The notes under the pieces were generated by a model. The model had not been told where the DNA came from and ran no database searches. It saw only the letters and a list, made by a program, of their open reading frames with translations. From positions 20,058 through 84,057 of the forward strand of contig JAHBMJ010004082.1 of the NCBI GenBank assembly GCA_018398765.1: a DNA stretch of 64,000 nt, written 5' to 3'. The DNA is from Chromera velia. Lineage: Eukaryota > Sar > Chromeraceae. Positions 1,390 to 59,700 of this stretch are shown here, in pieces. Made by a program: the position numbers and the translations under genes. The first letter of the stretch is position 1; each line of letters starts with the position of its first letter.

Positions 1390-4300
1390 ATGGATAGAAA
1401 ACAAGACAAAAGGCAGTCTTCTGGAAATGTGAAATTCCGCTCAACATTGGAATACGAACCGGAAGAACTCACCTTGACTCTGGCCCAGCTGGCCGACGAC
1501 ATTCCCCCAACTGACTCCCAGGCCTTGGCTGCAGAGCCGGGAAGTGAGTATGAGGTCCTGAGTCAACACAGAGAGGAGGGGTTGCCTCACGTGAATACCA
1601 TTGAGATGAGTGACGGACCTGCGCACGTGAGTTCCTTCTCTGAAGAGAACAATTTCAACACGAGCTTGACGGAACGGTTGGAAGGAGGCACCAACGACCT
1701 TGCGAGCTCTCAACAGCTGCGATCAGAGCTGGAGGAACCAGGGGGGCAGAGCAGCAAAGAGGAGGAACCGACAGAAGCAGTACCTGAGGCCCAAGAAGCA
1801 GAAACAGAAAATGAAGGACAAGAACTGGAAAAAGCATTTTCGGTGTCAACAAACGAACGGAGTGCGATTTTAACAGAAACTCTAAATCTCTGTGCACGTG
1901 CTGGAGGCAAGAAGCAGACCATAGGAAAGACCGGATTCGAGAACGCCATCAGATCGAGTTCAGACAATACTTTCCTCAAACTGAAGGGAAAGGCTGTCAT
2001 GGGCAAGGCCTTCCAAGGTCAGCGAAACCGGGGGACTCTTCACATGTCTTGTTTGCTTTGTCTTCTGTCTTTAACTGGAGTAAAGGAAGAAAGGAAGGGC
2101 AGAATGAAAGCAGGAAGGGACAAGTGTGACAGTTGGGCTTCTGTTGACTGCCTTGCTTTCCCTCTTGCTTCCTGATCGCAGACGCGATAGGCCTAGTCGC
2201 GATGAACACCATTGACAGAGCCGAGGTGGACCGACTGATGAACATGCTGGCTCTGAGACATTACCACTACGGCGTGACCACCGACCTGTTTCCCCAGACC
2301 ATCCAGGCGCTCCTTGCCGCAATGGAACAACTGTGCGGGGACAGCTGGGACTCTGTCACGGAGAGAGTGTGGGGGGAGGAGTGGGGGAAGTTGTCTTCTC
2401 AACTGATTGGCGCGATGAGCTCGATGGGAAGGCGGGTTGAAATTATCAAGAAAGACTGGGAGGTGGTCTCTGCACATCTCGGTATACAGGCACTGGTCGC
2501 GAAGATTTCGGCCAACTTGGTGGTTCTCTCTGTTCACGCTGCGGAGCGGCAACACGCAGAGGGAGGAGGCGGCCCCAGGGGTGGAGGGACTGGGATAGAA
2601 CAGAGCGATATGGTCAGTCTGGCTTTTTTGTTTTTCTTCTTTCTTCTAGCACTTGCACTGGCAAAGAAGAAGTTGAGCACACTGTCAGCTGGAGCGCGTA
2701 TGGGTGCGGTTAAGAACGAAAAGCCTGCATGATCAGAGAATGTGTGGTGGTTTCGTTGGGAAGGGGACCGAGTGAGTCATGCAGGCTCCGTCGGTCTGTA
2801 TGTTTTCCTCTTGTCGGCTTGCCGAATAGAGACACTCCCTTCCCGATGAGGCCATCGCCCTCCCGTGAAATGATGACTTACAATGATAGGCCGGAATGAG
2901 GAGAGGACTGGGTTTCTCCCCTCTTGCCGAGTTTCATTAGAGCCTTTTTTTCGTCTGACTCACGGCCAAACAATGCGATCGGGCCACAATGAGAAAACCT
3001 TTCTGATGGCCTTCTTGTGCCCCTCCTGAGTTACTGCCTGCGTTGTGTGTTGCATATCTTTCCCTTTTCATCTTTCTGTAGGACAGAACCCATCTCTGTC
3101 TATGCATCTGAGGGATTTCCTTCTAAGCCTCCGTACGCGCCTATGCACTGACTGAAAGACTGGTGGACTTCTTCTATTCAACTTGGATGGACCGCTGGAT
3201 GCCCTGTGATCATGCAGAGCGGTCTGGCTGAGGACATCGGCTCCCTTTTGTCCTTCCTCGTTGACGCCGTGTTTGACCTCAAAAGACTCCGGGGCCTGAC
3301 TGTGAACTTCCAGATCCCCTGGAGGGACATCTTCAAGAGGTACAAGGCGGTCCCGAACCTCGAGAAGGTCCAGGACGTCGTCTTAAGCACCATGCAGGTA
3401 GGTAGGCAGGTCAGTGCACTGGCAGGAAGGAGCCAGGGTCGACAGACAGATAGATGGAATGGTCGACGTACAGGTGAACAGTTGTTCGGCAACCAACCGC
3501 AGTAAGAGCACAGGGGGGAGTCGCAAGTGTACCCCCCTAGGGGTTTTTTGGAGGAGACGGCGTGCTTCGAAGAGTAGAGTTTGGGGAGGAAGAGTCAAAG
3601 GACTACGTTTAAGAATGCAAAGCAGTCGCAGTGCTATAGGCTTTATCTTCACCCCCCCTACCGATGCTCTCTCTGTGATTCGTTTATTTCAGGAGGTGGT
3701 TGGTGGTGAGTGGAGCATGGAACACGCTGAGGCCTGGACCTGGCTGTGGAGTTTGGCGCTTGCAGACAGGAAGCGGAGATGGCACAAGATAGACCGGGAG
3801 CGGGCTCTCCAGGCCTACCAGACTGTGGAAGCAGCAGTGATGAGAAAGTTTCAGTCCACAACACAGGGGGGGAGGGAGACGGCCAAGGACTTCTATGCTG
3901 AGGATGCATCGGAGTCTGGCGAGAGGGGGGGACGGGGAAAGAAGATGATTGGGTTTGCAGAGCAATCAGATTCAGAAAATGGCGACAGGGACAGAGAGCG
4001 TTTCCAGGATGCAAATGAGAAAATGATGGTACACTCCAGAAGCGACAAGGAGAGCAGTATCCGGTCAAGAAGAAAGCCCAAGTCTTTTGGGGCTTCGCTC
4101 ATGGCTGCACTCTGTTGCAAGAAAAGAGAGGAGAGAAGGGGAGGGACAGGGTCTGTTGTAGAGTCGCAAATCAGTGACAGCTCTCGAGAAGAAGCAAAGA
4201 GACGAAGAGAACTGTTGAGGACCCGCATCGAACAAAGCTATGAGGTCAAAGAGGAAGTGTCAGCAGCGATGGCCGAAAAGTTCTTTGAGCTTGTTCCCAA

Positions 4301-6156
4301 GAGGTCGGTCAGTCAACTGCAAAGATGTGATGAGCGCATCAGATTGATTTTCGTAATGCAAAATTGTGGGGTGTGTTCTACAAGGATTTGGAAAAGAGCG
4401 TTCTGTGCATAAGACAGAAATGGGGAAGCTCCAACGACAGGCTTACTGGACAGATTGATAGACCTGATCAGACCAGCCAACGAACGGCTTGAGATAGAAT
4501 CAAAAGCACACTTGACCTACTTTCACTTCTTTTGCCAACGCCGCGCATGGAAGCTTTACGGACTGTTTCGTTTGTTTATCTCTTCGTTACCGTGCATGTA
4601 TCTGCCTGCAGAGCCCCGAACCTTCGAATGATCTTCGAGAAGAGACAGGACATCTACAAGCACCATTTTGGAGAAATCACAAAGAGACTGTTGGCTTACC
4701 TGGACTCTCCAGAAGAGGTGAGAGAATGCGTGTGACGGTTCCCTCAGGGATCAATTGGAAACGAAGCACTATCGTCGCATTGCTGCCTTGTCTGTCAATC
4801 CATTACCTCTCCTCTCGGTGTCTGATCTGCACTTCTTGACATTTCTCCCCTCGTTTCCTCCTCTGCAGGTCTGGAAAGAAGATCCGGAGCTGGCCATCAA
4901 GCACATCGAATTCGGCGTCATGCCCTGTGACGTCCCCGTGTTTGCAAACGTATTCCTCCAAATCCTGGCCGAACTCGCGGGACCTGCCTGGACACAGAGA
5001 CACAGAGACACATGGGACAAGTCAGTCAGTCAGTCAGGGAGCGGCAAGGGGGGTAATTGAATGGGTGTTTATTGCGCCTGTGAAGGGGGAAAAGAACAAC
5101 CACTCTACGGGGGGAAAATGCGTGAGAGAAAATGTTTTGCTGAGAAAGAATCAAAGGACTTGTTCGAAAGATCGTGACACCATTGGCAAGTGTGAGAGTG
5201 AGTCATGGTTCATCGGGTTTATTTGGTGCATGCATATTGTCTGCATATATGTGTATACGTACGTGCACTTATGCGCGAATTTCTTTATACTTGTGTGTGT
5301 GTATGCAGGCTTTTCTCCATCGTCTCCGGAGCCCTTGCAGAGGTCGTCAGTGCCGGTCTGCTCCGACTGACACGCGCTCTCGTTTTCGGGTCTCTGCACG
5401 ACCTCAGGGAGGCACAACTCGAAGCACCGAGGGGAAAAAGGATCCAATGGAACTGCAAAGTGCGTGCGTCAGCGTTTTGCATTTTATTTTCTTGGACGCA
5501 TGTGTTGCTGCTTTTCATTTAGAAGGGAATGCTCAGGTCGGAGGGAGGTTTTCATGGAAACCGCTGTTAACCGGGTGCCGCTTTGCAATAAAAGAGAGTT
5601 GCAGAGGGACAGAGACAAAAAGGGTCGTCAGCGTGCAGAGGGCCCGTAGAGCGTTCTAGTGGATCAAGCAGGAGGGAAAGAATTGGAGCACTGCCTCTCG
5701 GTCCTGGTTTTTGAATCTACAATAAGCATCTCAAGTCTGGCTCAATCTCTTTCTCAGTTCTTCTGTGCTTGCCTCTCTATTCCGTGAATGGGCGCATGCA
5801 GGTGGAGATCAACGGCGAGGAGAGGAGTCCTCTCTTTTGGATGATTGAGAAGGGACGCACCGCCCTAGCACGGCAGATTCTGCGTGACGTCCTGGCAATT
5901 CGTGCGAACAGGTGAGGGAGCGCATGGCGGGAGGACACTGGCAGAGGCACACAAGCATCACGATGGTGTATCGGCGTGTCCTGTATGCATCAAATTCAGA
6001 AGTCCCGACTTACTTTTCACTCCACTTTAATTGTGATTTGTTCTGTGGTATTTCCGTTGTTCTGGGTCTTGCGCAGCTCACGAACCTGAGCCTGACCGTC
6101 CTTCTGCAGAGCAGCTTTTTGGAGACAAGCACAGACAGACACTTGCAGGCAGGCCA

Positions 6157-6189
<33 letters not shown>

Positions 6190-9100
6190 GGCTGCGTTCG
6201 GCTGATTCCTTTCTTTGCTTGTTTGCAGGTCGGGTGTCCACTACGGGAGGGAGGCGCTTTGGACTTCTCACGGGAGAGACCTGGTGAAGGTGAGTGCCTC
6301 GATCTGATTGGTGAAGGTGAGTGCCTCGATCTGATTGGTGAAGGTGAGTGCCTCGATCTTCTGATGGAATCGAATCAGATGATCTTGCCTCATCGTGGCT
6401 TGTCTTCGTTCAGATGTTGTTTTGGGGGGGTTTGATGTTTCACCGACCCATTTGATGCTCATTCGATTGGAATCTTCTATGTGTTTCTCCCGATCCTTGT
6501 CTGCTTCTTGCTCTCTCTGTGTGCGCAGGTGATCACCGACAACGCCCCCGACCTCTGGTGGGACCTTCTGGACGGCCACATCTGGTGCTCGGATCTTCTG
6601 ATCATGGGCAAGAGAAAGGTGAGGGAAGAGGGAAAAAGCAAAGCTGGTCTCGGAAAGGAAGACGGCCTGCAACTCTTGAAGGGTCTGTCTTTCTTTCCGT
6701 CTGTCTGCCTGTCGGGATGTTTGCCTGCCTGTTTATCCTGTTCCTGCGCGAATGCATGCATACATGAGTGCCTGAGTGCATGAGTGCAGGTGAACATGTA
6801 CATCCACGAGTTGTGGGGCGACTGTCTGAGTCCCCGAGACCCATCAGATCCCGAGAAGGGCCTCCTGTGGGCGGGCCCCTCCACCCAGCCTCTCTGGCTC
6901 CTCATGCAACTGGACAACGCCGCTCTCGCTCAGCATCCCGTGGTAGAGTTCATCGTGCAGGTAGGTCCGTGATGGATCCAGGCTGTGCGTGCGTCAATCG
7001 ACAGTCAATGAGAGTTTCAAAATGGTTTTTTTCGCCTCTCAGTCACTCTCGCATACAAAGTATAGCGCAATCGTATGAAGAAGATCTCGGAACAAAGATT
7101 CAAAAGAGAGGAAGGAAAAGTCGATCGATCGCGTCATGCACACTTACAGTTCCTTCCAAGCGCCTAGACGATTTCCACCGAACAACCTGGCATGCATCCA
7201 AAACCAGAATGCTGCTTGTGATTTGACATCATGGCTGTCCTGTCTTTCTGCTTTTCGTTATAACGTCGCACAGTGGAATCAAGGATTGATCGATCAGTTC
7301 ATGCCAAACTTCTCCATTGATTCTTATTTCTCTTTGCGCGTCTGCAGAAAAAGTGGGAGCTCTACGCGCGGCGTTCCTTCTACACGTTCCGTGCGGGGCA
7401 TTTCATCTCTGCCTTTCTGTTCTCATGCGGGTACATGTGGCTCACACGCACAGGTAGGTAGGGGGGTCTGTAAACTCGGATGAGAAGGGATTGGAGAGTA
7501 GGGATAATTTATGTGGCAGTGAGGGAGAGACTTGGCATGCGAACGATGAATGCCAGTCGCCGAACACATTTTCGGATTCTTTGGGGGCGTTGTGCTTGCT
7601 TCTTTCTGTTGTTGCATGCGTTTCATGTTCCCACGATTTGGTGTCGTGCCCTTGAGTTTTCCTTTTCTTTTGGGCCTTTCATGTCTTTTCTGTTGTATTG
7701 CAGGGGCCCATCCTGCAATGTCCTTCAGTCTCCGTCTGATGGCGACGATCGTTGCGACGGTGATGCTGGTGTTTGAGATCATGAAGGGGTTCCGACAACA
7801 CGAAAACCATTCGTACGCCACACACGTGGGGGGCATGCGGCTTCCCTGCAAGGTGCCTTTCCACTTTGCTCAGATGTTCACTCTGAATGACGTTCTGGCG
7901 TGTCTGTGCGTGATCGTGGTGTTCATCTTTGAGGTGGAACACGGCGGAGTGGAGAGAATGGCAAGGGGAGAGGTCAGCCTGTCAGCTTAATTCGGATAGA
8001 CTGTCCATTCTCCTGTATGTATGAAGTGTGCATCCTTCTCGGAATGAGTGAATCCAGCGTTCTCGTGCATACTTGTGGTTGGGGGGGGCAGGTCTCTCTG
8101 TTGACCGGCCCCCGTCTCTCTGAAGGGAAGCAGCAGGGAAAAACTGCAGCTGCAGCTGCAGCTGTGTGTGTGTGTGTGTGTTCTCGGTTTGAGACATGGG
8201 TTTCCAAGACAGCTTGATTGTTTTCTCGCTTTGCATGTTTCCGCGGTATGCCCTCTTGCTTGGGTTCTCTCGAGCTTCTCTCTGTGTTCTTCGATGTTTT
8301 TGCCTTCCTTCCTTCCTTCCTTCCTGTATGCATGCATGCATGCAGAGTTTCGCGGCAGTTCTCCTGAACAACCCGGACAGCAATCCCTCCAGCGTTTTGT
8401 CGGCGTTTGTGATGCTCCTCCTGTGGTTCTCGAACATTCAGGTCGGTCGGGCGGCCAGTCACCTCGCGAGACTGCGAGTAAATATCGATAAACGAATGAA
8501 TGGCGGAAGGAAGAAAAGAAGCAAGAAAGGAGCGAAGGAAGGAAGAAACAAGGAAGGAATGAGTGGGGGGATTTATTCATTGGACAATCCGGTGCAGGCA
8601 CTCAGCTTGGAAAGGAAAGGAGCGGATGGCCAGGTCGGCACATGAAGGTTCTCACATTGGCTCTGTGCATGGACACAGAGAGAGTTCTCGGACGGGAAGG
8701 ATAACAAAGAAAGAAAGACGGACACGAGTGAATGAATGCAAGGCCGTGCAGAGGACGAGAACTCGACGTCCCGAGACAAACCATGCATGCATCGTTCCCC
8801 TGCGATCGCATATTTTGTGCATGCAGACGCTAATGGCGATTGAGTCCGTGATGATGCTGGTGATTCTCTCCACCCACATGCTCGAGCAGCTGGCCAAGTA
8901 CATCTACATCATCATCTGTATGACTCTCGGGTGGGTGGCTGGGTGGGTGGGTCGGTGGGTGGGTGGGTGGGTGAGAGAGTAACTAAGTCTGTTGATTTTT
9001 TGTTGCATCTAGAGGGATGCTCTCACAGAAAAGATGAAACAAGGAGTAGGCAGAAGTTGAGAACCGAAACGAGAGCAAAATCCTGCAGGGACACACAGGC

Positions 9101-9491
9101 ACATTTTTCCAATGCCCCAATCTCCAATTCATTCGTTCAGGTTCTCTGGTGCGATCTGGTTGATGGCCCTTTGGCACGAGGTCGACGAATTTGACAGCTT
9201 TCCCGAGACTGTCATCCACCTGGTGCTGTACGTGTGCGGGGCTTGGACGCCGCCATGGGTAGAGATCACAGACAGCTTCATCAGGACGTTCTTTGCCATC
9301 TACGCGATCGCAGTTGCTCTAGTCCTTCTTCCGGCTCTCGTGGCCATCTTCGCAGGTGTGTGAGTGGGCAGGTGGAAAGGGGGTTGGTTGCTCTGCCGGG
9401 ATAAGCATCTCACGTCTTTAAAGGACTGATTCCTGAATACATGCATATGCTTTGACTCCAGGCAGAAAGAAAGAAGTGTGATGACAGCCAT

Positions 9492-9560
<69 letters not shown>

Positions 9561-10292
9561 ACAAGTTTGGTGACAAACCCCCTCCCTCCAGAGATCGCAG
9601 AAAGCTCACATGCTTTCTCTTACTCTCAGTCAATCACACAGCAATGAGCCCCCGTGCAACATTCTGCATCAAATCCCTTGAGAGTGAGCTCTGCCGATTT
9701 CTGATTTTTCTCACCCCGCCCCTTTCTACCCGCAGACACATGCAGAAGGAAGATTGGGATCGCGAGGGCTCAGGCTCTTTTGGGCCGAGCTAAGCTGGTG
9801 GTGGATATAGAATCCACCATGCACCGCCCTCGCGACAAGTACGGGTACTGTCCGATGGACAAAATCGTGGATGCTCACCTGAAATCAGTCTTTGAGGAGA
9901 GATTGTCCTTCGATGACGCACGCGAGCTGGGGCCTGCAGGGGGCATTTCGGTCAAAATGGACTCGAGTTTCATCCCCCCGGGCATTCAGCAAAGAAACGG
10001 TCGGGCGGACCGAATAGAAAGATACGAAAACGAGGAAGGGGACGAAATGCCTTGGCCAAGAGATCAGATGTCCCGGTCTGCTGCTGTGGGGGGATCCGGT
10101 CAGAACAGTCAGGACGCGGAGGCCCGTTCTGCCCTTGAGTCCTTGGGCAAGTCTGTGAAGAGCCTCTCTGCAGTCATATACAGAGTGTCGAAGTTGATGG
10201 CCTCCTCGGGTGTGGCAGACGACGGCACTTCCAAATCTGGAGCGACGTCAACGCACAATGCATCGGAGGGCGGCCCTGCAGTTGCACATTGA
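1390..10292 (+). CDS. Three-globin TRP-like cation channel (17 exons)
   Basis: Exons read as 1390-2017, 2182-2612, 3218-3397, 3693-4303, 4612-4717, 4869-5020, 5309-5459, 5802-5911, 6229-6289, 6529-6618, 6790-6960, 7348-7453, 7704-7972, 8346-8441, 8827-8930, 9141-9355 and 9736-10292. Every junction has gt/ag and a matching phase, giving 1345 residues. Residues 1-150 are acidic and disordered. Globin 1 (about 155-290) has the F-helix motif LRHYHYGV with proximal His236 and a G-helix ending GDSW. Globin 2 (about 292-445) keeps GGEWSMEHAEAW but has lost the F8 His. Globin 3 (about 590-735) has FFELVPKRAPNLRMIF, then KHIEFGV with His664 and AGPAW. A linker (about 754-897) ends HPVVEFIVQKKWELYARRSF, as in TRP channels just before S1. 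S1-S4 lie near 913-932, 937-961, 990-1010 and 1038-1054, S5 near 1060-1085 and S6 near 1134-1159. The cytosolic tail is polar. Predicted role (inference): haem-gated or redox-gated cation channel. The TRP subfamily is not resolved. Confidence 0.8.
6283..6363 (+). repeat. 27-bp repeat x3 carrying a splice donor
   Basis: Three tandem copies with a 27-bp period begin at 6283, 6310 and 6337, each with GGTGAAGGTGAGTGCCTCGA. The first copy spans the exon 9/intron 9 border of the globin-channel gene, so the donor AAG|GTGAGT is present three times. In the exon 9 frame the unit contains TGA, so use of the second or third donor would insert a premature stop. Confidence 0.85.
8931..8972 (+). repeat. (GGGT)n at the exon 15 donor
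   Basis: A GGGT-rich microsatellite starts exactly at the donor of exon 15 of the globin-channel gene, so several GT dinucleotides in near-identical context lie within 40 bp. It may reduce donor precision. Confidence 0.7.
9493..9556 (+). repeat. (TC)n microsatellite
   Basis: A long CT/TC tract inside intron 16 of the globin-channel gene. It is pyrimidine-rich but lies about 180 bp upstream of the acceptor. Confidence 0.9.
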
Positions 10293-13528: not shown

Positions 13529-14527
13529 TCAGACTTGGAACTTCCCGCACGCCTCCTCACTCTTCTCCCAGAGCATTTCGAGGGCCTCACAGTCCGTCTC
13601 GGAAGGACGAGCAGGCACAGAGACGGCAGGACCGGACATGCTGTGAAACCACCCGTTGGGCCCCCACAGTTCCCCGCTCTTCACTCCGTCTCCCATCATC
13701 GTCTTCAGCAGACCCATAGTGCCGTCCTCTGCGGACTGAATCACATAGCCCATCAAGGTCAGGAAAAGACCCCCACCAAGCGATCCTTTCGCAATCAGAT
13801 CATCCGCAAGATTCGTTGAAGAGGCCCCAGGATGGCAGGTGAGTGCCTTGACCTTCGAATTCTTCTCGGCCAGCTTCTTGTGAAGTGCCTGGGTGAACAC
13901 GGCATTCGCCAGTTTGGTCTGTTGATACCTGACGAAGTTGGGGGACCCGAGCCCCTTTCCGTTCCCTCCCAGATCCCCCCCCCTCTTCTCAAGAAAGCGG
14001 GCTTCCAACTTCTTCGTCCACTTCCGTGCCCCACTCGAGTGATTCACCACCCGCGCCTCTCCATGGACCTCTGCACCTTTCTCCAAACAGGGCAGAAGAA
14101 GAGAAGTAAGGAGGAAGTGGCTGAGGTGGTTCGTCTGCATCTGCACGTCGTAGCCGTCCTTTGTCGCAATGTCTTCGTTCCCCATCACACCCGCATTGTT
14201 TGCGAGGCAGTACAGGTGGGGGTACTGTGCCTTCACCGTCTCCCCGGCTTTGCGGACGGAGGCGAAGTCTTGGAGATCGCAGTCGACTGCTTCGAAGGTG
14301 CCGGAGGGGACCGCCTCTTTAAGAGACGCGAGGGACTTCTCTGCCCTCTCGGAGGGCCGGTTCAAAAGCAGAACCGTACCGCCCTGCTCGGCCACCGTGC
14401 GGGCAGCCACAAAGCCCGTGCCGGAAGTGGTGCCTGTGATGGCGAAGACCTTCCCATCAACGCGCGGAAGTTCTTTCTTGAAGTTCTCAAACCAACAGGA
14501 CTTAGGGTCGGGCATGCCGGCACTCAT
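13529..14527 (-). CDS. Short-chain dehydrogenase/reductase
   Basis: A single uninterrupted frame of 332 residues starting at ATG 14527. It shows the Rossmann cofactor motif TGTTSGTG (residues 31-38), NNAG (110-113), a Ser-Ser-Gly before the active site, and the catalytic YQQTK near residue 206. This is the classical or extended SDR layout and most resembles the retinol-dehydrogenase/protochlorophyllide-reductase-like group of NAD(P)-dependent oxidoreductases. Substrate cannot be read from sequence. The frame stays open upstream to 14959, but that part is built from ATGCAT and GCGCGC repeats (Cys/Ala/His-rich), so the internal Met followed by a normal SDR N-terminus was preferred. A targeting extension is not excluded. 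It is intronless, unlike its neighbours, and lies divergently from the LRR gene. Confidence 0.85.
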   Translation of the reverse strand: MSAGMPDPKSCWFENFKKELPRVDGKVFAITGTTSGTGFVAARTVAEQGGTVLLLNRPSERAEKSLASLKEAVPSGTFEAVDCDLQDFASVRKAGETVKAQYPHLYCLANNAGVMGNEDIATKDGYDVQMQTNHLSHFLLTSLLLPCLEKGAEVHGEARVVNHSSGARKWTKKLEARFLEKRGGDLGGNGKGLGSPNFVRYQQTKLANAVFTQALHKKLAEKNSKVKALTCHPGASSTNLADDLIAKGSLGGGLFLTLMGYVIQSAEDGTMGLLKTMMGDGVKSGELWGPNGWFHSMSGPAVSVPARPSETDCEALEMLWEKSEEACGKFQV

Positions 14528-15341
14528 CTTGTCAGAGGTAATTAAGGGAAACGTGCGATAACTTGTCAAAGAACGAAGGACGGAGATTGGAGACGAGACG
14601 GGAAAGGCTCTGACAATGACGTGCGTTTCTGTTGGTTTGATGTACAGACGCAATTCAGTACAGCTGCAATTCGGTGTGATTGTCGAAGAATGAATGAGAG
14701 TACTGTGCGGGATCTCTTGTGCATATGTACGCTTTTCCAAGTTCCAACTGCTTTGTTCTCGACAGCCCTCCGGAGTACGTCTCAGGGTCATGCAGCGCAA
14801 TGATTGCATGCATGACGTCTCGAAGTCTCGACGCGCGCGCCGAGCGCATGCATGCAGCGCGCGCACATGCATGCATCGCGCGCACCGAAATGCATGCATC
14901 GAATGAAGACCGTTGGAGACGGCTGGAGACACAGATAGACACAGAGCTCGAAACATCATTCATGATAAGTTTCATCATGGACTTTCGACCTATCGAGACC
15001 AGCCTTTGATTCCTACACAGCTTTTCTTCAAGCTGTGCTGTTACTGCTGTGCACGAAGAACATCGAACAAACGATTTGTGCAAGGGCCGCAAGCCAAGTC
15101 TCCAAAACGTCTGACGCTTCTAGAGACCCGAGACTGGATTCCCGCTTTCTCCTTCCTGCTGCGCAAACGTCGCAATACGTTGCCAGGCTCCTGGGATTTC
15201 CTTCAAAGTGATTCCTCGGGCCTTTTCCCATCTGAGAGCTCCACCATTCTGCGCAGCTTTTTTGTATGCGACTATTTTGTCACCATACAGCACACTAGTT
15301 CCTCGCCGTCTCCTAGCTTGCTCTCTTCAGTCGCATTTGAC
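14528..15341. promoter_or_regulatory. Divergent intergenic region with ATGCAT/GCGCGC palindromes
   Basis: This is the roughly 810-bp gap between the SDR gene (leftward) and the LRR gene (rightward). Between about 14800 and 14900 it holds several GCATGCATG and GCGCGCGC blocks that can form cruciforms. TGCATGCA is a known binding site of an ApiAP2 factor in Plasmodium; here the regulatory role is inference. No TATA or initiator element could be assigned. Confidence 0.4.
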
Positions 15342-16502: not shown

Positions 16503-18655
16503 TGGCCTTTTGTCTTTGTTCTTTCTTTCTTTTTGTCTGTGGTGTTCATGAAGAAAAAGAGGGAGAAGAAGAAGAAACATATAGTCTGTCCGTCTGTCTG
16601 TCTGTCTGCCTGCCTGCCTGCCTGCCTGTCTGTCTGCAGGCTTCTCTCTGGGTGTGAGAAAATAGGATCTTTTCTTGTCATCCTTTCGTGAGCCCCAGAC
16701 TCTCGAGTCTCTCCGATGCGGTCCGTGTGCCAGATGAATGTATGGTCAGGGGTGAAGAAAGAAAAAGAAAAAGAAAGGGGACCTCAGAAGGGAAGTGGGG
16801 CTGCACGCGTGCTGTTGGCTCAGGTCGGCTGACACAGGGCGATAGGAGACCGACCTTTCACCTCCCCCTCTGTCGTCACCAGCTTCCCTCTGACTGCAGA
16901 GCAAAACAGGTGTAAGAATACGTGTACGGAGTGTTCACGACAAAAAGAGCCGTTGACAGAAGTCAGAACGAATGCAGCATGCAGAGAAAGCAACCGCTCT
17001 GTGTGCCCTCCCCCCACCCTCCTGCCGTCCGTACGAAATCTCCCGAAAGTGTCAGCCTGTGTGAGATCCCATCGGGCATGTCTGAATACACACGATCTCA
17101 CATTTTCTCACCCCCCCCTGCACCGTCTCCCTGCAGGGCCTCGTGCGTGCAATGAAGCCGCGCTGCCGAGACTCATCTCTTTCTTGCGACTCAAAGTCGG
17201 AGGGACAATAGGAATGCCCCCTAGTTGTATGAAGACTCTCAACCTTTCCAGTCAGTCATATATCGGCTGGTTGGATGACTGATCGATCGGTTTGGGACCA
17301 TCTATAGCAAGGTGTTCAACGAGGGAAATCTAATGGGCCCTCTGAAATAGTTGACAAACCGTTGGTGTAGGTGTGCTTCAGTCACTCGATCCTTCCTTCC
17401 TTCCTCCTCCCTTTTCCCTCAAGACCGCCATCTGATATTCATTTTCGCAGAAAAAAACATTTTTTGTCGTCCGCATGCTCCTCCTGGCTGCAGAGTGCGA
17501 TCTGACCAATGCGGCAGTTGCTCTTTTCTATCAGTTCCCACGCTCCCTCGAAGAGCTTGATTTGAGTGGTCAGTCAGTCCGTAAGGTGTTTTGGCCTGAT
17601 GCGAATAAAAAGTTCATTTCCTTACATTGGGTGCCCGTTTTTCCTTGCCGCGCCTTCTGGACAGCGAAAAGAGAAAATCATTTGAGCACCCAGCCAGTCA
17701 GCTAGGGACGGCCTGCAGCAAGTGCAATGTGCTGAGAGGGCCCCCCAGATTTGCTATTGATTAACATTTCAACCCGTGCACTTCTCTCTTCAACTGTACC
17801 CAGAGGCAGTCAAAAACCCTGTCCCATGTATGTGCCCTTCACGCAACCCTCTCTCACACACCCATGTGAGTGCCTGCTAAACGTAGTGCTAGGTTGATGC
17901 TTCACTCTTCCCTTGAGTGTCTCACCTTGAGACCCTGCGAAAGGATTCTCCTTCTTTCCTTCGGAACTGAAATTTTGTCAGCGCTGCTGGACGGCGTTCC
18001 CCCCTCGCAAAAAAAGAAGAGAACTGAAGGACGAACCCAAAGAAAACAAGAAAGGGGAGCTTACCTCGGATCCATAAGTAGTTTGGCTTCGTTTTTTGCA
18101 GATCACTTTTTTTTGTCTTCTTTCGATCCGCCCGGAGGGTCGCTCCCTCATTCATTCATGCTTGCAGGGAATCATCTCCGCAGTGCCTCTGCTGAAGCCC
18201 TCGGCTCCATCCTTGCCTTGGGATGGCTCCCCGCTCTTCTCAGTCTGGACTTGAGCGACAACCCTCTGGGCCCCTCTGGGGTGCGGGGGCTGGCAAAGGG
18301 TCTGCCTTCACCAGCTGATGCACTCCCCCTACAGTCGCTCAACCTGGCACGAACCAAGGCAGGCCCCATGGGGGTCGCAGCATTGGGGGAGGCGTTGAAA
18401 GCAAAGAAGGTGGCGTCTCTCGGGTCGCTGGACCTTGAAGGGAATGCAATGAGACCAGGGGGGTTCAAACACTTGGCTGCAGCGGTTAGAGAGATGGCCG
18501 TGCCTCACTTGCGAGTGCTGAATTTGAAGAGAAATTTTCTCACCCATGTATCGCGGCAGCACAGAGACTTTGCTCCGTTGAATGATTTTCTGTCAACAAG
18601 TGGGCTGAGAGAATTGGAGGAGTTGGATTTGAGTGACAATGTCCTATTTGACTGA
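15342..18655 (+). CDS. Leucine-rich repeat protein (6 exons)
   Basis: Exons read as 15342-15407, 15477-15638, 15876-15915, 17137-17250, 17494-17568 and 18177-18655. All phases agree, giving 311 residues ending at TGA 18653. The N-terminal 76 residues are helical (RQLAFEYLPHAILHAYFEK). From residue about 77 on, LRRs of the ribonuclease-inhibitor type appear: NVDLTG, LEELDLSG, LLSLDLSDNPLGPSG, LQSLNLARTKAGPMG, LGSLDLEGNAMRPGG, LRVLNLKRN and LEELDLSDN. Such proteins are protein-binding scaffolds; no NACHT or other effector domain is visible. LRR sequence continues past the stop in the same frame, so the gene is probably a truncated version of a longer ancestor. An alternative acceptor at 15465 would give a poorer reading frame. 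Confidence 0.65.
16160..16638 (+). repeat. Compound (TTTC)n/(CTGT)n/(CCTG)n array with a recurring spacer
   Basis: It lies in the long intron 3 of the LRR gene. Blocks of TTTC, CTGT and CCTG repeats alternate with a conserved spacer ending AGAAGAAGAAACATATAGTC (near 16209-16240, 16430-16455 and 16558-16587). The same spacer recurs at 25702-25740 (reverse) and 49250-49318. Confidence 0.85.
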
Positions 18656-20655
18656 TTGGGGGTGGGAGGGGGCGATGTTGCGTCTGCTGCCGCCATTGTC
18701 GCGTCGGGACGGTTTCCGAGATTGCGACGCCTTGACCTGGGGGGCACCCGGATGGTCTCTCCCCAGCTCGCGGCCTTCGCTACTGCTTTCGGAGTAGATG
18801 GGTGTCCCCCTCTGAGAGACGTTGACCTTTCGGGGGGGGGGCCGTCATTTAGTTTCAGAGGGGATTATTGCTTTAGCAAATGCTTTCAATTCGGGACGTC
18901 TCTCTCAGCTGTGTACTTTGAAAATGAGCGAGGGAGGTCATAGGTCATCTGAAGCTTTCTTGGCCTTGCATGTGTCAAAGTTTTGTGACAAGAAATGCGA
19001 TGGGCCTTCAGTTCCTCGATCTTCAAATGATCTCTGACGCTCCCGAAGAGGGTTTGGGGGCCCTCGCAGATGTGATGAGAGTGGGTGCCTTGAAGTCGCT
19101 GCAGATCTTCAGACTAAAGCTTGGTGCGGGCATTGTAGACGGGGATGCCTTGTCGGCATTCGGCAGATCGTTGGGGGGGGGTGGATGTTCGGTTCTCCAA
19201 AAATTGGAATTGGAATGGGTGGATAGTCGGGATGAGGGTGTGGCAGCACTTGCAGAGAGTCTGGCTGGGGGGGGTCTCCCATGCCTTCGGGAGATGTGCC
19301 TGTCTGTGCGGAGCAGGTATTGGAATAATTTTGTTGACTGGGATGAATCAGATGATCATTGGGAGGGTGAAAAGGGTGATGGGGATGGGTGTAGGATTTT
19401 AGGGGAAGTGCTGAGCACTAATAAGATTCCCTCTCTCAGGAGTGTCAGCCTTTGTTGGCACCTTGATTAGACGTTTGCCTGGCTGTGTAACGGCCTATCA
19501 AAGAGCAGCGTTGCTCCTCCAGTGCAGCTAGAGCTGGAGTTAATATCCCAGGATGGAGACGAAGGGGTAAATAGAGCAGTGCGAGGGTTCAGTGAGGTTG
19601 TTCGCGGGGGGAATCTGTCGGGGTTGCGCAAACTGAACCTCGAAAAAGCGCGATTCGAAAAGCATGATGAAAGCAGCAGGGATGGAGGGGGGGAGTTAGG
19701 GGAGGCATCGCTCCATTCTCTAGAGGAGCTTGTGCTGAACGATCAGCCTGAAATTGCGACTGCAATTTTCGACGGTATGTCAAGGGGTCCGGGAGTCCTC
19801 CCTGCTCTCCGCTCCCTCCGCTGCCCCCTGAATAAACTGAAAGACTCCGAAGAAACGCGTGTTGCAGAGAGCCTGTCTGCCGTGTTGACAGCTGGCAAAA
19901 CGCCCTCACTGGTTAATCTGGGAGTGGATCTGTTGCAAAATAGTGAGAAGAGCATGAATGCTTTTGCTGGGGCTCTGTGCTCGCCCCGAATTTCTGCCTT
20001 GCAACGGCTTGGCCTCAGGATCGGCCATACCGGACCTGACGGCTTGTTTGGCTCACGAAAAGAGCAGAGCGTGAAAGTAGTCATGTTGTCGGTAACGATC
20101 AGCTCTGGCAACCTGAGCGGGTTGGTAGACCTTTGTGTATGTTTTGGAAGCCAGGAGAATCTGGAGGATGTCAAGGCGCTATGCGTAGGGCTAAACAGTG
20201 GCAAGCTGCCGTCCCTCCGAAATCTTCGACTCAAGACTGATCCGCCCATGCTTTTTAGATTAGAGGACGAAGTCGGAGCCGCGCTTTCGGGAGTCCTCGT
20301 GGCAGAAAAGCTTCCTCGCTTAAGGACTCTGGAGGTGCGCGGACTGCTGAATGATACAGCGTTCACAACTCTGATGCAGGCCTGGTCGGACCAGCCTCCA
20401 CCTCCTCTGCACAGTTTGCTTCTGGCAGACAATTGCCTGAGTGAATCAGCTGACGCTGTGTTGCCACTTCTGGGGTCGAGGCGCATCCCGACTCTGGAGA
20501 CCGTCAATCTTTTCGGCACGGGACTACAGGGCAGGTCGGAGGCCGCGCTGTGTGGGGCATTCCCGGATGTCATTGATTTCGATTCATCAAATGACTATGT
20601 GGATCCTGTTGAATTGACATTCCCGCATCTTACAAATTCAGTGTGGCATCTGTGA
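18656..20655 (+). pseudogene. Decaying LRR sequence downstream of the LRR gene
   Basis: Immediately after TGA 18653 the same frame continues with LRR units (LRRLDLGGTRM, LRDVDLSGG). It shifts frame at a run of about ten G near 18831-18842 and again near 18970-19000, and meets an in-frame TAG at 19468. A 377-codon open stretch to 20655 then follows, with further LRRs (LRKLNLEKARF, LHSLLLADNCLSESAD, LETVNLFGTGL). This is most simply the degenerating 3' half of a formerly longer LRR gene. Homopolymer sequencing error could explain the frameshift at the G run but not both stop codons. Confidence 0.6.
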
Positions 20656-20870
20656 CCAGACTGGCACTAGCACGCATGCATGGGAGTGCGGAGACACGCA
20701 AAATTAATCCCAAATAGAGCAAGACATTTGATTCATGGTGATAACTAGGGTGATAAACTACTTATCATCATATGTTTCTCCCGGCCCAGTTGTGTATTTT
20801 AAATGTTCTACATCAATTTAATTAATTGAACAATCTATAAGTTATTTTAGACTTTTAGTACCTGGGGTGT
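20656..20870. other. AT-rich gap
   Basis: AT-rich sequence with TTAATTAATTG-type motifs between the LRR pseudogene and the LINE fragment. Nothing else was recognised. Confidence 0.4.
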
Positions 20871-21932
20871 GTGATATCGAATGACGGGTCTCTCAATGGA
20901 GAGATCTATCACCGCATTCAGAAAGCAGGGATGGTGTGGGGAAAGTTGCAGGGGGAGGTGTGGGAGCGGGCAGGGCTTACAACAAAGACGAAAATGCACA
21001 TGTTCAGAGGTGCAGTCTTCCCCGCCCTCCTCTATGGGGCAGAGACGTGGGTAGCCCGAAAAGACCAGATCGGGAAGTTGGAGTCATGGTGCATGGCGCA
21101 TGTGAGGCAGGTGATGAACCAGCCTCGTCAGGAGCGTACTCCTGACGCCGCCCTCCGCCGTGCATTTAGATTGCGCACGATTAAGAACACCATCCGACTT
21201 GCCAGACTCCGGTGGCTGGGGCATGTTGGGAGAATGGGGGGAGAGCGTTTTCCCCGTCAGTTGTTGTTTGGGCATCTCCAAGGAGAGCGCCCCCTTGGTC
21301 GACCCCTCCTTCGTTGGAGTGACTGTGTCCTCTCTGATTTCCGCCTTCTGGAAATCAATGAGGCCGAGTGGCAGACACTTGCCTCTCATAGAGGCAGGTG
21401 GAGGGCGTTAATTCAAGATGGGGTGAAAAAGGTAGAGGAGAGAGCAGCGGAGGAAAAGGAAAAGAAAAGGGAAGTGAGAAAGGGGCAGAGAGATGGAGAT
21501 ACGAAGTGTGAGGCATGTGGACGAACGTTTTCCACCCCCCAGGGGCTTCGCATTCACACAAGCAAAGCACATAAGGACCTCGCCCCCAGACAGCCAGAGT
21601 AGCCGAAGAAGGCAGTCAAAGAAAAGAAAGGAAGCTGGGTTCAGGGCTGTCAGGTGAAGGAAATTCTTAGAAAGTACAAGCAGGGAAGAGGATGGTGTTA
21701 TGAGGTGGCATGGCATGGCTGGCAGTCAACATGACATGAAGCAGCCTCGCTCATGCGCAAGCACGCCCTGCCAGAAGTGGAAGAGTTTGAGAAAAAATGC
21801 AGCTGTTAAGCTATTTGCTAAAGGTTGTGAAATAAGGGTTCATCATTTAATAATCTGCCTTGCGTGTTGTGACTTGCCGAACGCTAGACGCCTATTATGG
21901 GCCAATAGCGATGGCGTATGATGATGATGATG
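20871..21932 (+). mobile_element. 5'-truncated LINE, reverse transcriptase C-terminus
   Basis: An open frame at 20871-21602 encodes the C-terminal part of a non-LTR retrotransposon polyprotein. It has the post-RT thumb/connector signature LLYGAETWVARK and ARLRWLGHVGRM, followed by a basic coiled stretch and a C2H2 finger, CEACGRTFSTPQGLRIHTSKAH. The catalytic palm (YADD) and endonuclease are absent, as expected for 5' truncation. A 3' UTR of about 310 bp ends in a short (ATG)n tail near 21918-21932, which marks the insertion end. It belongs to a different family from the LINE at 56.8-61.2 kb. Confidence 0.8.
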
Positions 21933-47713: not shown

Positions 47714-50700
47714 ATGGGAGCTGGTGAAAGCCGGACTGCGGACGACCGTTGGAGCTGTGAGCTGGAGGAAGAGGACATGGTGGACAATCGGGGCATCCAG
47801 ACCCGCAGGCACCTGGGGAACCAGGATCGCAACATGAGGGGACCCCGAGCGTTTCGCAGCCCTCTCTTTCGAATTCCTGCAGACCGCAACAAGGTCAGTC
47901 AATCCACAAACCTGAGAGTGATATATGTACATGTAGGCCTCTTTGTGCGGGCTAAAGAAGAGGGAGAAGTTCTTCCCTCTAACCAGCAATATTCGTCGTT
48001 TTCACTCTTTCTCGTTCGGCAAATGAAGCGCCAGACAGCTTAGCGGGCAAGCCCACCAGAACACTGATTAACATATTGACCAGGGAGAAAAGTAGCTCGC
48101 CTGCTCTGGAACGACGGACTTATGCATCGTCTTCTCTTTCTTTCATTCTCCTTTTCTGGACGACAGCGTTTCTCATCACCCTGAAATATCCACAAATAGA
48201 TGGCGGGAAACCCAGAAAAAGTGAATCCTGCCGTTTCTTTTTGCAGGCTTCCAACAGCCGAAGGGGCGAAGGGAAGAAACTCGATCTTCGAGCTGATGCG
48301 ACCCCCGGCCAGATTAGAGGGAAGGCCGACGGGGTTCAAAGAGCGTCGATGACTCTCATTCTTCCACAGGAAGCCTTCCAACAAGCGAGAGAAGTGGATC
48401 TTTCTCGACAGGATCCTTCTAGCAGATCGCCTTCCTTGAGGCCTTCTCGCCTTTCAATTGATTCTCGCAGCCCGGTCGGTCTCTCTCTCTCTCTCCTTCC
48501 TTCCTTCCTTCCTTCTGTCCTTCCTTCAGGTTTTCATTGTTCCCATCCTGGTTCTGCCTCTCGTTCCGTTCTCTCTCTCTCTTCTTGCAGCTCCTCGTAT
48601 CTATCTGCATTCTTTGCTTTTCTGTTTTTCTGCAAATCAATTTGCCTGCGTATTCGTATCATCGCATTCTTTCCTTTTCTGTTTTTCTGCAAATCAATTT
48701 GCCTGCGTATTCGTATCATCGCATTCTTTCCTTTTCTGTTTTTCTGCAAATCAATTTGCCTGCGTATTCGTATCATCGCATTCTTTGCTTTTCTGTTTTT
48801 CTGCAAATCAATTTGCCTGCGTATTCGTATCATCGCATTCTTTGCTTTTCTGTTTTTCTGCAAATCAATTTGCCTGCGTATTCGTATCATCGCATTCTTT
48901 CCTTTTCTGTTTTTCTGCAAATCAATGTGCCTGCATATTCGTATCATCGCATTCTTTCCTTTTCTGTTTTTCTGCAAATCAATGTGCCTGCGTATTCGTA
49001 TCATCGCATTCTTTCCTTTTCTGTTTTTCTGCAAATCAATTTGCCTGCGTATTCGTATCATCGCATTCTTTGCTTTTCTGTTTTTCTGCAAATCAATTTG
49101 CCTGCGTATTCGTATCATCGCATTCTTTCCTTTTCTGTTTTTCTGCAAATCAATGTGCCTGCGTATTGACCGCTTCACGCCCCTTTCTGCCGAGCTTGCC
49201 ACCATGCACTGTCTGTCTTTCTTTCCTTCTTTTCGTCTATTGTGCACTTGAAGAAAAGAAGGGAGAAGAAGAAACATATAGTCTGTCTCTGAGGGAAAGA
49301 AACCATATAGTCTGTCTGTGTGTTGACATGCAGACCGTTGAGGGGGGCGTCTCACAACGTCCAGCTCCTCAGTTGAGACCCGCGGATCCTCCTTGCAGCG
49401 CAGACAGAGACAACAGACGTGAATCCATGGCGGCGTTTCCCCTCTCTGCGTCTGCCGGTTCATCTAGGAACTCTTTTATGTTCGGGGGATCTGATAAGAG
49501 CATTCTCAAGACGTCGTTTCCAGAAAGAGAAAGAGCGGCGGGAATCCGGAGAACCTGCTCGTACTCGAACTTCACGGACAAGCAACCTCCTTCTACTTTC
49601 GTGAGGGGGGAGAGGAAACCTACCCTTCTCGGACTCTCCTTTGAACATCTCGAGAAGCTGGAGCAAGCCGCCGCAATGGCTCGACTTGTCAGTCAGTTCA
49701 TCAGCCAGCTACTCAGACCCCGAGTAATTTGTGTGTAACATCTAAATTCGTTCCTTTTAGTTGGGACTTTCTGTTTACTGCATGTGCGTATGCAGATTCG
49801 ATCTTATCCCCCAGTGAGGCCTGAAGAGGAGACATGAAGGAAGGAAGACTTTTTGGTATCTCTCAAAACAACGCCGCGTCTTCCTTTCACACAGCGGTTT
49901 TTGTCTGTCTGTCCACCCCTGTCTTTCTTGAAGTCCCACTTCGAAAGTCTGTGTGTTGAGACGTATTTCTGCATCTTGCATTATGCCAATCACAGAAAAG
50001 AGCAATTTTCCTGTTTCCATGTTTTCCCTCTGTGTGTGTGCGTGTTTCATGGCTGTCAGCTTTCAGCTCTAAGCTCATTTCACTTTGTCCTCTTCACTTA
50101 TCCGCCCGTTCACGTTTAATTGCAGGCACCGAGAAGAAGGGGGAGGAAAAAGCTCTCTGCCCCTCCTGTCCAGGTCTCCTTCAACAAGGAGGCTGTTGAC
50201 ATGATTGGGGTTCACGCAAGCCTACAGGCAGCCGCTGAAGCGCGGCGTGGAGGTCCAACCACAAAAGAGGGGGTTGGGACTAAACCGGAGGAAGCGAACG
50301 GACAGGCAGACAGTAGAGAGGGGCACGAAGGTACCGACAGCCGAGCGAACAAACCGAAACCCAGACCAACGGTCAAGCAGACCCCACTTGCGCGTGCGTC
50401 AGAACGAACGCCAGCAGGCAGAATGACTACTTGGTGGGAATAGATAGAAAAGCGCACTTCCTCTTGGACAAGCTCGTGAGGAAAGAACAACAATAATCGG
50501 AAGCAGGGCCGGAGCATTCTGGCTGACTTCTTCCGACCCCCCCATTACTTGCTAGATAGATGAAATTGAATTCCGTACAGTAAATAAAAGTTGGATGGCA
50601 CAGAGATTATATTGCATCAACCAAGGAAGACAAAAGATTTTTTGTTCCAGACCGACCTGCGGGACGCGCACGTGCGAGCGAGTTCCACTCATCACCCAGC

Positions 50701-56799: not shown

Positions 56800-59700
56800 T
56801 GTGGATAGCCTAGCTAAACTGCAAAGGGGGACAGAGAGGGTTGCAGCCCTGTTTGTGCTCCAAAGAGTTTGAAAGCAAGTTTGAGGCAGCAGACATCCTT
56901 TTTCTACCTGAAAGTTGTTCGTCACTGAAGGAGTGCAGGATAGCCAAGGGAAAGAAAGAAGGCAAAAACTTTCCATTGATTTCGAAAAGGGGGGAAACAA
57001 CGACCAGCACAGGGGGGGTAGCCGTTCTTCTCAGCCGTAGGGCAAGAAGTACGGGATGAGAAGAGGAACAACTGAGCAATGCCGCAGCGATAGTACGACA
57101 CCCTGACTTGAACACGCCTCTTTTGTGCGGGGTGTACCACCCGTGTGCAGATTCTACGCACGCGGACAACACATTCCTTATAGACTTGAAAGACCGTTTG
57201 GAAGAGAAATATAGGGAGGGAGGGGGAAGGAGACGGACAGTCTGTATAGGGGGAAACTTTAATACGAGGACTGACAGCGAAGCGCCAAGACTCACGTTTG
57301 GAGAAAACGTGGGGGAGATGGGGAGGGGAGAGATGTGGGAAAAGGAAGAGACGCCTTTTAGACCAACGAGACAGTCAAAAGACAGGGTGGTGAACTGGAA
57401 AGGAAAAAGGATGATCTCTTTCTGCGAAGAAACAGAGATTGTCCCGATCAATAGGCTGCGGGAGTGCAAGGTCGTAGGGGATGGGGGGGTGAAGTCGTTT
57501 GCATTTGATGATTCATTTACTTTTTCTGCATTGGGGCGGGATGTATAGGCGGTGAATGATTATGTATATGTGTCCCCTGAACTTTTGTTGAGAGTTCAAG
57601 ACTTTTCAGTGAGACATGTTCACTCAATCACCACCGATCACGCTGCCCTGTGGCTTTGCCTGAGATTTCTAAGAAGCGAAAACGGAAAGAAAGGAAAAGA
57701 GAGAGCTAAGAAAACAGAAAAAGAGCTCCCAGAAAGGGATCAGATAAAGAAACAATGGTGGGGACCTCTGCCAGAAAGGGCGGAAAGGAAGTTTTTAGAT
57801 AGCTTGCAGGAAAGTCTGGAGAAAGAAGGAATAGAAAAGGAATTCGACAAGATGATGAACGTAGCAAAAGGAGTGAGAGTGACAAAAAAAAGCTTAGACA
57901 GGCTCTACAGACAGCTGCACGATACAGTGGAGAGAGAATACAAACGAGCAGCAAAGAAAGAAAAGAAATTTCGAAGAGGAACAAAAATAAAAGAAGGAGA
58001 CAGTCCAGAGATCATCATAAGAAGAAATCTGAAGGAAGTGAAAAAGACCGAGTCGAGAACGGGAGAGAAAGTGAGACAAAGCAGAGAAAAACTTAAAAAA
58101 AAAAAAGTGAGGAAGCTGAGAATGAATTCAGAGAAGCAAAAAAAGAGCTACACATAGCAAACAAGGAGAGAAGAAAGGCCATGCAAAAAGAAGCAGCGAG
58201 ACAGAAATACAAAAGAATTGAAGAGATACAGAAAGAGATCAGAGAGCCAGGAGGAGCATGGAAGATCTAGAACAAGCTAAGCAAAAAGAAAGAGGTCAGA
58301 ACAACGCGCTGACAGAGGATGAGAAGGCAAAGGGATGGGCAGAACAATGGAAGGAGAACGAGGAGGAAATAAGAGAACAGGACGAGCAACTCACTTTTAC
58401 AGACAGAAAGTCAGGAAAGGTAGTAAAAGCGAGGGTGACCAACTTATGCAAGACTTTTGAGGCTCTCACAGAGGCAAGAGAATGGAGGATAAGAACAGAC
58501 CATGTAAGAGACTGGATGAAGAAAACAAGAAATCCAAAGAAGGCAGCAGGGAAAGACGGAATGCCCCCAGGCGTCTTAGGGGTGATGGCAAAGTCAGAGT
58601 CGGTGGTTGACTGCTACAACTGCTTGCTGAATGTGTGTGCTCGCTTTGCATAATGGCCAGAGGGGTGGAATGATCTAGTGATTGCTGCTGTCCTAAAGCC
58701 AGGAAAACCGCAAAATGTGCAGAAAGGACACAGATCAATTCACTTGGATTCTGCAGATGTGAAGTGGAGAGAACTGGGGATCAGAGATGTGGTAGAGAAA
58801 GAGGGGAGTGGGAAAAGGAATGAAGTGCAGTTTGCATATAGGAAGGGGGTGGGGACTCTGAATGCTATTTTTCTTTTGCTTCAATCGATTGTACGTTTTG
58901 AGTATCTGTATGTTTCTTTCATTGATTTTACGAGCGCGTTTAATGAAGCAAGTCATCGAATGATGGAAGTTCAACTAAGAAAGCATGGAGTGTTAGAAAA
59001 GACCATCAAGTGGGTGGCAGCATCTCTCCAGAACATCAGGGCAAGGGTGAGGGGAACGGACTGGTGGTTCAGAGAAAGCAAGGGGTCAAAGCAAGGCGGG
59101 CCGGCCGGTCCTTCTTTGTTTTCTGCATATATTAACGACATGCCAGAAGAGATCAAGAAGAGAGCAAGGCTGACAGGGAGGGGACCAAAACTCCAAAGAG
59201 ACGCAGACGGGTCGGAGGAAGACTTCCCCGTCGGCCTCTTCGCAGACGACACCTACCTGAAGTCAGCGGAGGCAAGGGAGATGGAAAGATTGCTGAGAGC
59301 TCTTAAGGAATACGTAGAGCCCCTCAGACTTCTTTTGTCAGACAAATTAAGGTTCGTCAAGTTCTGCTGGTCAGAAAGGGAAAGGGGAAGAAAGGAATGT
59401 TTTGTTTTGGGAGGGAAAGAGTTAGAGCAGGCAAAGGAATACCCATATCTTGGTTTGTTGTTGACAGAAGATTGCTCAGTAGATGCAATGATGAGAGAAA
59501 GAACAGTAAAAGCAGAAAGACTCTTTTTTGTGCTGAAAAGTAAGATCACATCAGTAGGAGAGATTCCCCCAGCCACTTGCTTCCATTGGTTCAAACAGAC
59601 AGTGTGTGCCGTATGGCTGTATAGCTGTGAAGTGCATTCACATTCGCAGGAGTCTTTGGCAGACTTCGATCGATTGCAGAGGAGGTTCATTCGATGGGTT

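Follow-up and report, generated by a model that had tools for sequence, protein, structure and literature searches.

Can a globin serve as the sensor of an ion channel within a single polypeptide? The question is raised by a locus of Chromera velia at positions 1390 to 10292 of a 64,000-nucleotide stretch (here called the window; positions 20,058 to 84,057 of the forward strand of contig JAHBMJ010004082.1, assembly GCA_018398765.1), where a preliminary description had proposed three globin domains, a linker, and a six-helix channel of the transient receptor potential (TRP) type. The comparisons reported below give good sequence support for such a fusion and place the gene in a family of related copies. 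The 17 exons that had been proposed phase into one frame of 1345 residues on the + strand, with all 16 introns of the GT..AG type and a TGA stop at 10290-10292. The exon model was set by hand from the DNA letters; a spliced aligner given the same 1345-residue protein returned identical exons, which is a measure of self-consistency and not an independent test. At exon 9, a 27-bp tandem repeat (6277-6365) triples the donor into three identical sites, of which the first alone keeps the frame open, while the other two would introduce a stop. The proposed order of globins, linker, and TRP-like channel stands, with the addition of a weak ankyrin-like segment between globin 3 and the pre-S1 helix. 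The features of the gene are as follows.

1390-2017, 2182-2612, 3218-3397, 3693-4303, 4612-4717, 4869-5020, 5309-5459, 5802-5911, 6229-6289, + strand: exons 1 to 9 of the whole gene (hand-set splice model).
6529-6618, 6790-6960, 7348-7453, 7704-7972, 8346-8441, 8827-8930, 9141-9355, 9736-10292, + strand: exons 10 to 17 of the whole gene (hand-set splice model).
1390..1836, + strand: N-terminal leader, residues 1-149, acidic and, judged by eye, probably disordered.
1837..2423, + strand: globin module 1, residues ~150-290, split by the intron 2018-2181, with the proximal (F8) His236 at 2259-2261.
2427..3833, + strand: module 2, residues ~292-460, a degenerate globin with Phe392 at the F8-equivalent position.
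4221..5366, + strand: globin module 3, residues ~590-722, with CD1 Phe625, Tyr632 aligned to the E7 position, and F8 His664 at 4902-4904.
5367..7371, + strand: pre-S1 helix HPVVEFIVQKKWELYARR, preceded by a weak ankyrin-like segment, residues 723-905.
7387..9740, + strand: S1-S6 with the pore loop CGAWTPPW, residues ~911-1162, from hydropathy and family profiles.
9747..9824, + strand: TRP-box-like helix after S6, residues ~1165-1190, aligned with the post-S6 helix of Inactive and TRPV3.
9867..10079, + strand: conserved C-terminal tail, residues ~1205-1275, reading GP.GG ... PPG ... GRADR.ERY..EEG.E.PWP in the conserved columns of the six-copy alignment A2.

The reality of the fusion was assessed in the paralogs of the gene. 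A query running from globin 3 to S1 had matches on at least 21 of the 4040 contigs, the window's own contig included, and this count is a lower bound; 13 of the 21 contigs have a match to module 3, and 11 of these 13 also match the ankyrin/pre-S1/S1 part. Ten of the 20 other matching contigs were modelled (C2621, C132, C2033, C3948, C289, C1946, C2536, C1757, C2669, and C1929), giving 11 models with that of the window. The models came from a spliced aligner that took the window protein as its guide and penalized introns, so that exon ends, N termini, and loops are approximate, and some contain forced exons that are surely wrong (module 3 of C1929, C2669 and C1757 past the linker, and S1-S4 of C2621). 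Alignment A1 holds seven copies, C2621, C1757, C2669, and C1929 having been left out, and the module 3 alignment A3 holds nine, without C132 (suspect splice) and C1929; A2, A4, A5, A6, and A7 hold 6, 5, 6 (of 9 with coverage), 8, and 4 copies, respectively.

Globin 3 is joined to pre-S1, S5-S6, and the TRP helix in eight of the 11 models (the window, C2621, C132, C2033, C3948, C289, C1946, and C2536), that of C2621 being poor in S1-S4, and all three modules are present in five (the window, C2621, C132, C2033, and C1946). In C2621, positions 65686-66804 form a single open frame that covers globin 3, the linker, and pre-S1 (query residues 535-915; E = 1.2e-72). Moreover, at the position of each window intron (16 in all), two or more paralog models have an exon that runs on without a break; the junctions at residues 209, 702, and 1022 rest on two models each, that at 1022 being crossed in a weakly aligned loop, and the introns at residues 413, 702, 753, and 1054 are each common to three paralogs. 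Because the C2621 frame is open and paralog exons cross every window junction, the fusion does not depend on the hand-set splicing. That globins and a six-helix TRP-like channel are parts of one protein, as proposed earlier, is therefore well supported by these sequence comparisons.

The globin identity of residues 155-735, for which profile searches had been proposed, was confirmed. A Pfam scan of the whole window protein (E <= 10) returned Globin (PF00042) alone, at 2e-13 and in two stretches, and a single-sequence search of the PDB matched bacterial haemoglobins to residues 204-283 (0.0014) and 598-715 (0.0033). With family profiles, module 1 (five copies) matched a solved globin at 5.3e-13, which we take to be a Glycera-type haemoglobin, and module 3 (nine copies) did so at 2e-12, with 3wfw and 3s1i (haemoglobin-like flavoproteins, presumably HGbRL and HGbI), flavohaemoglobin, and Vitreoscilla-type haemoglobin as its best matches. 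Pfam Globin was also found in single copies of module 1 (4/5, the window copy at 1e-5) and module 3 (4/9, the window copy at 8.2e-7), and comparison of the two module profiles gave a probability of 99.1%. On these profiles, modules 1 and 3 are classed as M/F-type 3/3 globins of the flavohaemoglobin/HGbI kind. The extents of the modules had to be amended to residues ~150-290, 292-460, and 590-722. An AlphaFold2 prediction for exon 2 as a single sequence had a mean predicted local distance difference test score of 47 and was not used.

Module 2 is the outlier of the three. The best PDB match of its profile (six copies) was at 0.0034, Pfam Globin was found in two of six single copies (best, 0.16), and profile-profile comparison with modules 1 and 3 gave a probability of 91%. 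In the alignment to the other modules, its F8-equivalent residue is Phe in eight and Met in one of the nine models (of 11) with coverage; module 2 is thus a degenerate globin that has no proximal His, and probably a structural remnant.

The F-helix motifs lie where they had been placed, RHYHYGV in module 1 (His236) and KHIEFGV in module 3 (His664), and the proximal His is retained in these two modules. In module 3, F8 is His in all 10 models considered (C1929, set aside as unreliable there, also reads His), CD1 is Phe in nine, and B10 is Phe in eight; a Tyr lies seven residues past CD1 in all 10. This Tyr aligns, without gaps, to a Gln of 3wfw that we take to be E7. In module 1, F8 is His in all five fully covered models, a second invariant His follows two residues further, and B10 is Tyr in four of the five and Phe in the window copy. 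To judge from these pocket residues, module 3 is a stronger candidate for haem binding than module 1.

The channel part is recognizable as a family. A profile of seven copies matched, in the PDB, Inactive of Drosophila (3.7e-12), TRPV3 (1e-10), and TRPV6 (3.8e-10), with weaker matches to TRPV1 (2.5e-7) and polycystin-2 (PKD2; 2.5e-5), and when C2033, C289, and C132 were left out, the profile of the remaining four copies matched TRPV3 (4e-10) and Inactive (1.4e-8). The matches listed for the two channel profiles (60 of 159 and 60 of 120) are TRP-superfamily chains only, namely TRPV, Inactive, Nanchung, OSM-9-like, TRPC, TRPM-like, polycystin, and yeast YVC1. The parts aligned with TRP channels are pre-S1 (weakly, with Inactive and TRPV3) and then S5, the pore, S6, and the TRP helix in order, while the support for S1-S4 comes from hydropathy and the paralog alignment. 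Membrane matches driven by mere composition are disfavoured, since all listed matches belong to the TRP superfamily and the alignments run from pore through S6 to TRP helix in order. Partly by eye, S1 to S6 were placed at residues ~911-932, 936-962, 985-1010, 1037-1063, 1074-1100, and 1135-1162. At a hydropathy cutoff of 1.5, S2 to S6 are seen in the window copy and S1 is not; S1 appears just in the family average, at 1.2. Three short stretches of the globin region (~307-329, 667-685, and 703-721) also pass the cutoff of 1.5. The earlier proposal of S1-S6 with a TRP-like pre-S1 segment is upheld by the family profiles and the family average.

By family hydropathy and profiles, the protein has the six helices and the S5-S6 pore loop of a TRP channel. 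Its nearest relatives by profile, TRPV3, TRPV6, and Inactive, share with it the pre-S1 segment, S5-pore-S6, and the TRP-like helix, and a weak ankyrin-like segment precedes pre-S1. However, the six N-terminal ankyrin repeats of TRPV channels were not found, nor was a full ankyrin domain; the globins take the N-terminal position, and the filter sequence is another one. The ankyrin-like stretch is short and weak: profile A6 (eight copies) matched the ankyrin part of KIDINS220 at 2e-5 summed over repeats (best single stretch, 0.46) and TRPA1 pre-S1 at 0.058, and Pfam Ank families were found in three of eight copies, the window copy not among them.

The family shows signs of purifying selection. 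The ratio of nonsynonymous to synonymous divergence (dN/dS) between C2536 and C2669 is ~0.08-0.11 in modules 2 and 3, and that between C2536 and C1929 is 0.13-0.19 in module 2, the linker, the channel, and the tail, with synonymous divergence (dS) of 0.54-2.0 in these comparisons. In a tree built without module 2, the modules group by position (module 3, 72/83; module 1, 82/80), which suggests that the three-module array predates the gene duplications.

We lean to the reading that the product of the gene is a subunit of a TRPV-like cation channel, and that its N-terminal globins would act as a haem sensor gating the cation flux. In this scheme, module 3, and perhaps module 1, would bind haem; a change of ligand or redox state (oxygen [O2], nitric oxide [NO], or oxidation of the iron) would move the F helix, and this movement would reach pre-S1 and the TRP-like helix by way of the linker and alter the opening of the pore, so that a gas or redox signal would become a flux of cations, probably Ca2+. 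The N termini of TRP channels are cytosolic, and the globins should therefore face the cytosol, where they would sit in the place at which TRPV channels carry ankyrin repeats; the subunits would be expected to form a tetramer. Gating by haem is a plausible hypothesis. A more specific version, in which each subunit of a whole family of haem-gated channels in a photosynthetic alveolate would use one or two globins (one of them with an unusual Phe-B10/Tyr-E7 pocket) to sense O2, NO, or redox state and would relay the signal mechanically to a TRPV-type pore, is put forward tentatively, as falling a little short of probable.

Several observations weigh against this reading. As to the channel, the window protein had no Ion_trans match in Pfam (E <= 10), and its channel part alone matched nothing in the PDB at E <= 10; the profile search proposed for this region was thus negative for the window copy and positive, with TRPV-like channels, for the family, and the channel part of the window copy is too divergent for single-sequence detection. 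Ion_trans and PKD_channel were each found in one of seven single copies, and in the eight other models that cover S1-S4, identity to the window copy in this part is just 18-36%. As to the globins, six of the 11 models lack module 1 or have just a part of it, which may be due to contig ends, to the stretch fetched, or to runs of N; the aligned CD region of this module (five copies) has no conserved CD1 aromatic, and in C2669 a doubtful partial stretch has Ile in the F8 column. The CD1 residue of module 3 is Trp in C132. As to the genes, the copy in C1929 contains runs of N and a stop within its frame and is perhaps a pseudogene. Many comparisons, including those with the window copy, approach or exceed saturation in dS; where the window copy gave finite values, dN/dS is 0.17-0.34, comparisons of 11 codons not being counted. 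Finally, the module groups are moderately supported in the tree, and with module 2 added, module 1 does not form a single clade.

Other explanations were considered; they are not mutually exclusive, and their likelihoods need not sum to unity with that of the preferred one. The globin modules could be haem-free regulatory scaffolds that gate the channel through contacts with proteins or small molecules. RsbR of Bacillus stress signalling, a non-haem globin, would be the model for such a role. The loss of the F8 His from module 2 in all nine covering models is in keeping with this, as are the lack of a conserved CD1 aromatic in module 1 and the differences of module 3 from flavohaemoglobin in its distal residues. 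However, the retention of the F8 His in every module 3 model and in the five fully covered module 1 models, together with the CD1 Phe of module 3 in nine of 10 models, argues against it, and we regard a scaffold role as unlikely, if worth keeping in view. Alternatively, the globins might bind haem and serve as a membrane-local O2 or NO buffer, NO dioxygenase, or peroxidase without gating the channel directly. Their closest likeness to proteins of the flavohaemoglobin and HGbI classes would fit such an activity, but the protein lacks a reductase domain by Pfam, a flavohaemoglobin-like gene exists elsewhere in the genome, and family members repeatedly show globin 3 followed by the linker and pre-S1; this explanation appears distinctly unlikely. 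It is more doubtful still that the membrane part, though derived from a TRP channel, has ceased to conduct and serves as a receptor or scaffold, as might be read from the window S6 (LLPALVAIF versus LLNLLIA in C2033) and from the pore loop GAWTPPW, which is unlike the TRPV filter: a TRP-like S6 is kept in C2033, and the dN/dS of S1-S6 between C2536 and C1929 (which has its stop elsewhere) is 0.13. That a globin gene and a channel gene were misjoined by the choice of exons, a concern for any gene model read from DNA alone, is strongly disfavoured and very improbable, given the open frame of C2621 from globin 3 to pre-S1, the paralog exons that cross all 16 junctions, and the four introns common to three paralogs each.

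The preferred reading, a channel gated by its globins, has partial counterparts among known systems. Globin-coupled sensors of bacteria and archaea consist of an S-type globin and a kinase, cyclase, or methyl-accepting output. The present protein resembles them in that the globin is N terminal to the output domain in the same chain, but it differs in having M/F-type globins (PF00042), three modules in a row, and an ion channel as output. The likeness drawn earlier to globin-coupled sensors consequently holds for the fusion of a globin to an output and fails for the globin type. An S-type sensor was rejected, since Pfam gave PF00042 only for the window protein (E <= 10) and the best PDB matches were those to HGbRL, HGbI, flavohaemoglobin, and VHb. 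Compared with flavohaemoglobin and the single-domain bacterial haemoglobins, the modules belong to the same globin class by PDB profile, but no reductase domain is present (Pfam), and in module 3 B10 is mostly Phe and the E7-equivalent residue is Tyr. Elsewhere in the genome, contig C3421 (locus L001, 1252-2616) carries a single-exon flavohaemoglobin-like frame; it was the sole match when the genome was searched with PF00042, a search that missed the split globin exons of the window.

We know of no earlier globin-gated ion channel, and the present one would be the first. In agreement with the statement of the preliminary description that no globin-to-ion-channel fusion had been described, none was found in the searches made of the open-licence literature. 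According to a 2026 androglobin paper, nematode GLB-33 is a globin-coupled transmembrane receptor and the exception among metazoans (PMC13331133); it resembles the present protein in the covalent linkage of a globin to a membrane protein, but is described there as a receptor, not a channel. A 2014 paper on Guillardia theta reports two chimeras, 1060 and 1497 residues long, which carry six globin domains between them and a putative cytochrome b5 N terminus (PMC4101818). These are likewise large multiglobin proteins of an alga with a secondary plastid, but the cytochrome b5 N terminus sets them apart, and the likeness is drawn for the globin part. The words "channel" and "transmembrane" are absent from the text of that paper (PMC4101818), as are "globin" and "ion channel" from the main text of the chromerid genome paper (PMC4501334).

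Relatives were also sought beyond this genome. With the window protein and the six-copy alignment, no relative was found at E <= 0.01 among the best 7992 and 7996 candidates, respectively, of 5.8 billion predicted proteins, a result that says little about rarity because only the top word-sharing candidates were scored and eukaryotes may be thinly represented among those proteins. Two peptide patterns, with 40 stretches tested, led to no confirmed relative in contigs of prokaryote genomes; none was found in viral contigs (32 stretches tested), and exon 4 as a query gave nothing in plasmids. No claim is made that the family is restricted to Chromera velia. Bacterial contamination was rejected in view of the 16 GT-AG introns, the matches on 20 other contigs of the genome, and the lack of a confirmed prokaryote relative in these searches. 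On contig C2153, four family matches lie ~0.8-1 kb apart (6395-9356), three of them with an identical score, which suggests tandem duplication.

Outside the gene, the window contains the following features.

13529-14959, - strand: short-chain dehydrogenase/reductase gene (adh_short, 1e-25).
17870-18655 and 19471-20655, + strand: leucine-rich-repeat open reading frame (LRR_6, 1.9e-8) and a neighbouring frame, leucine-rich-repeat-like by eye and with no Pfam family at 0.01.
58654-60600, + strand: reverse-transcriptase open reading frame (RVT_1, 1.6e-15).

In addition, the open reading frame at 20859-21602 has a weak C2H2-finger match and looks, by eye, like a retroelement tail, and a tandem repeat at ~48600-49200 is open in several frames on both strands. 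Elsewhere in the genome, contig C4040 (locus L052, 40-1636) carries a bacterial-type 16S rRNA with tRNA-Glu and tRNA-Leu nearby and is perhaps of the plastid; the genome search found no match to the psbA family. Genes of the light-harvesting (58 matches) and alveolin (11 matches on 7 contigs) families suggest a photosynthetic alveolate, possibly a chromerid, although the alveolin family also gave a match in one control bacterium, Caulobacter.

Known globin sensors work through enzymes or chemotaxis proteins. A receptor is a further known output (PMC13331133). A fusion of globin and channel would couple a haem ligand directly to a membrane current in one molecule. It would supply a natural template for gas-gated channels. 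If the proposed gating is true, family members encoded on ~20 contigs could allow the cell to translate different gas levels into ion flux, and the family would illustrate a possible means of sensing O2 or NO in a photosynthetic organism related to Apicomplexa.

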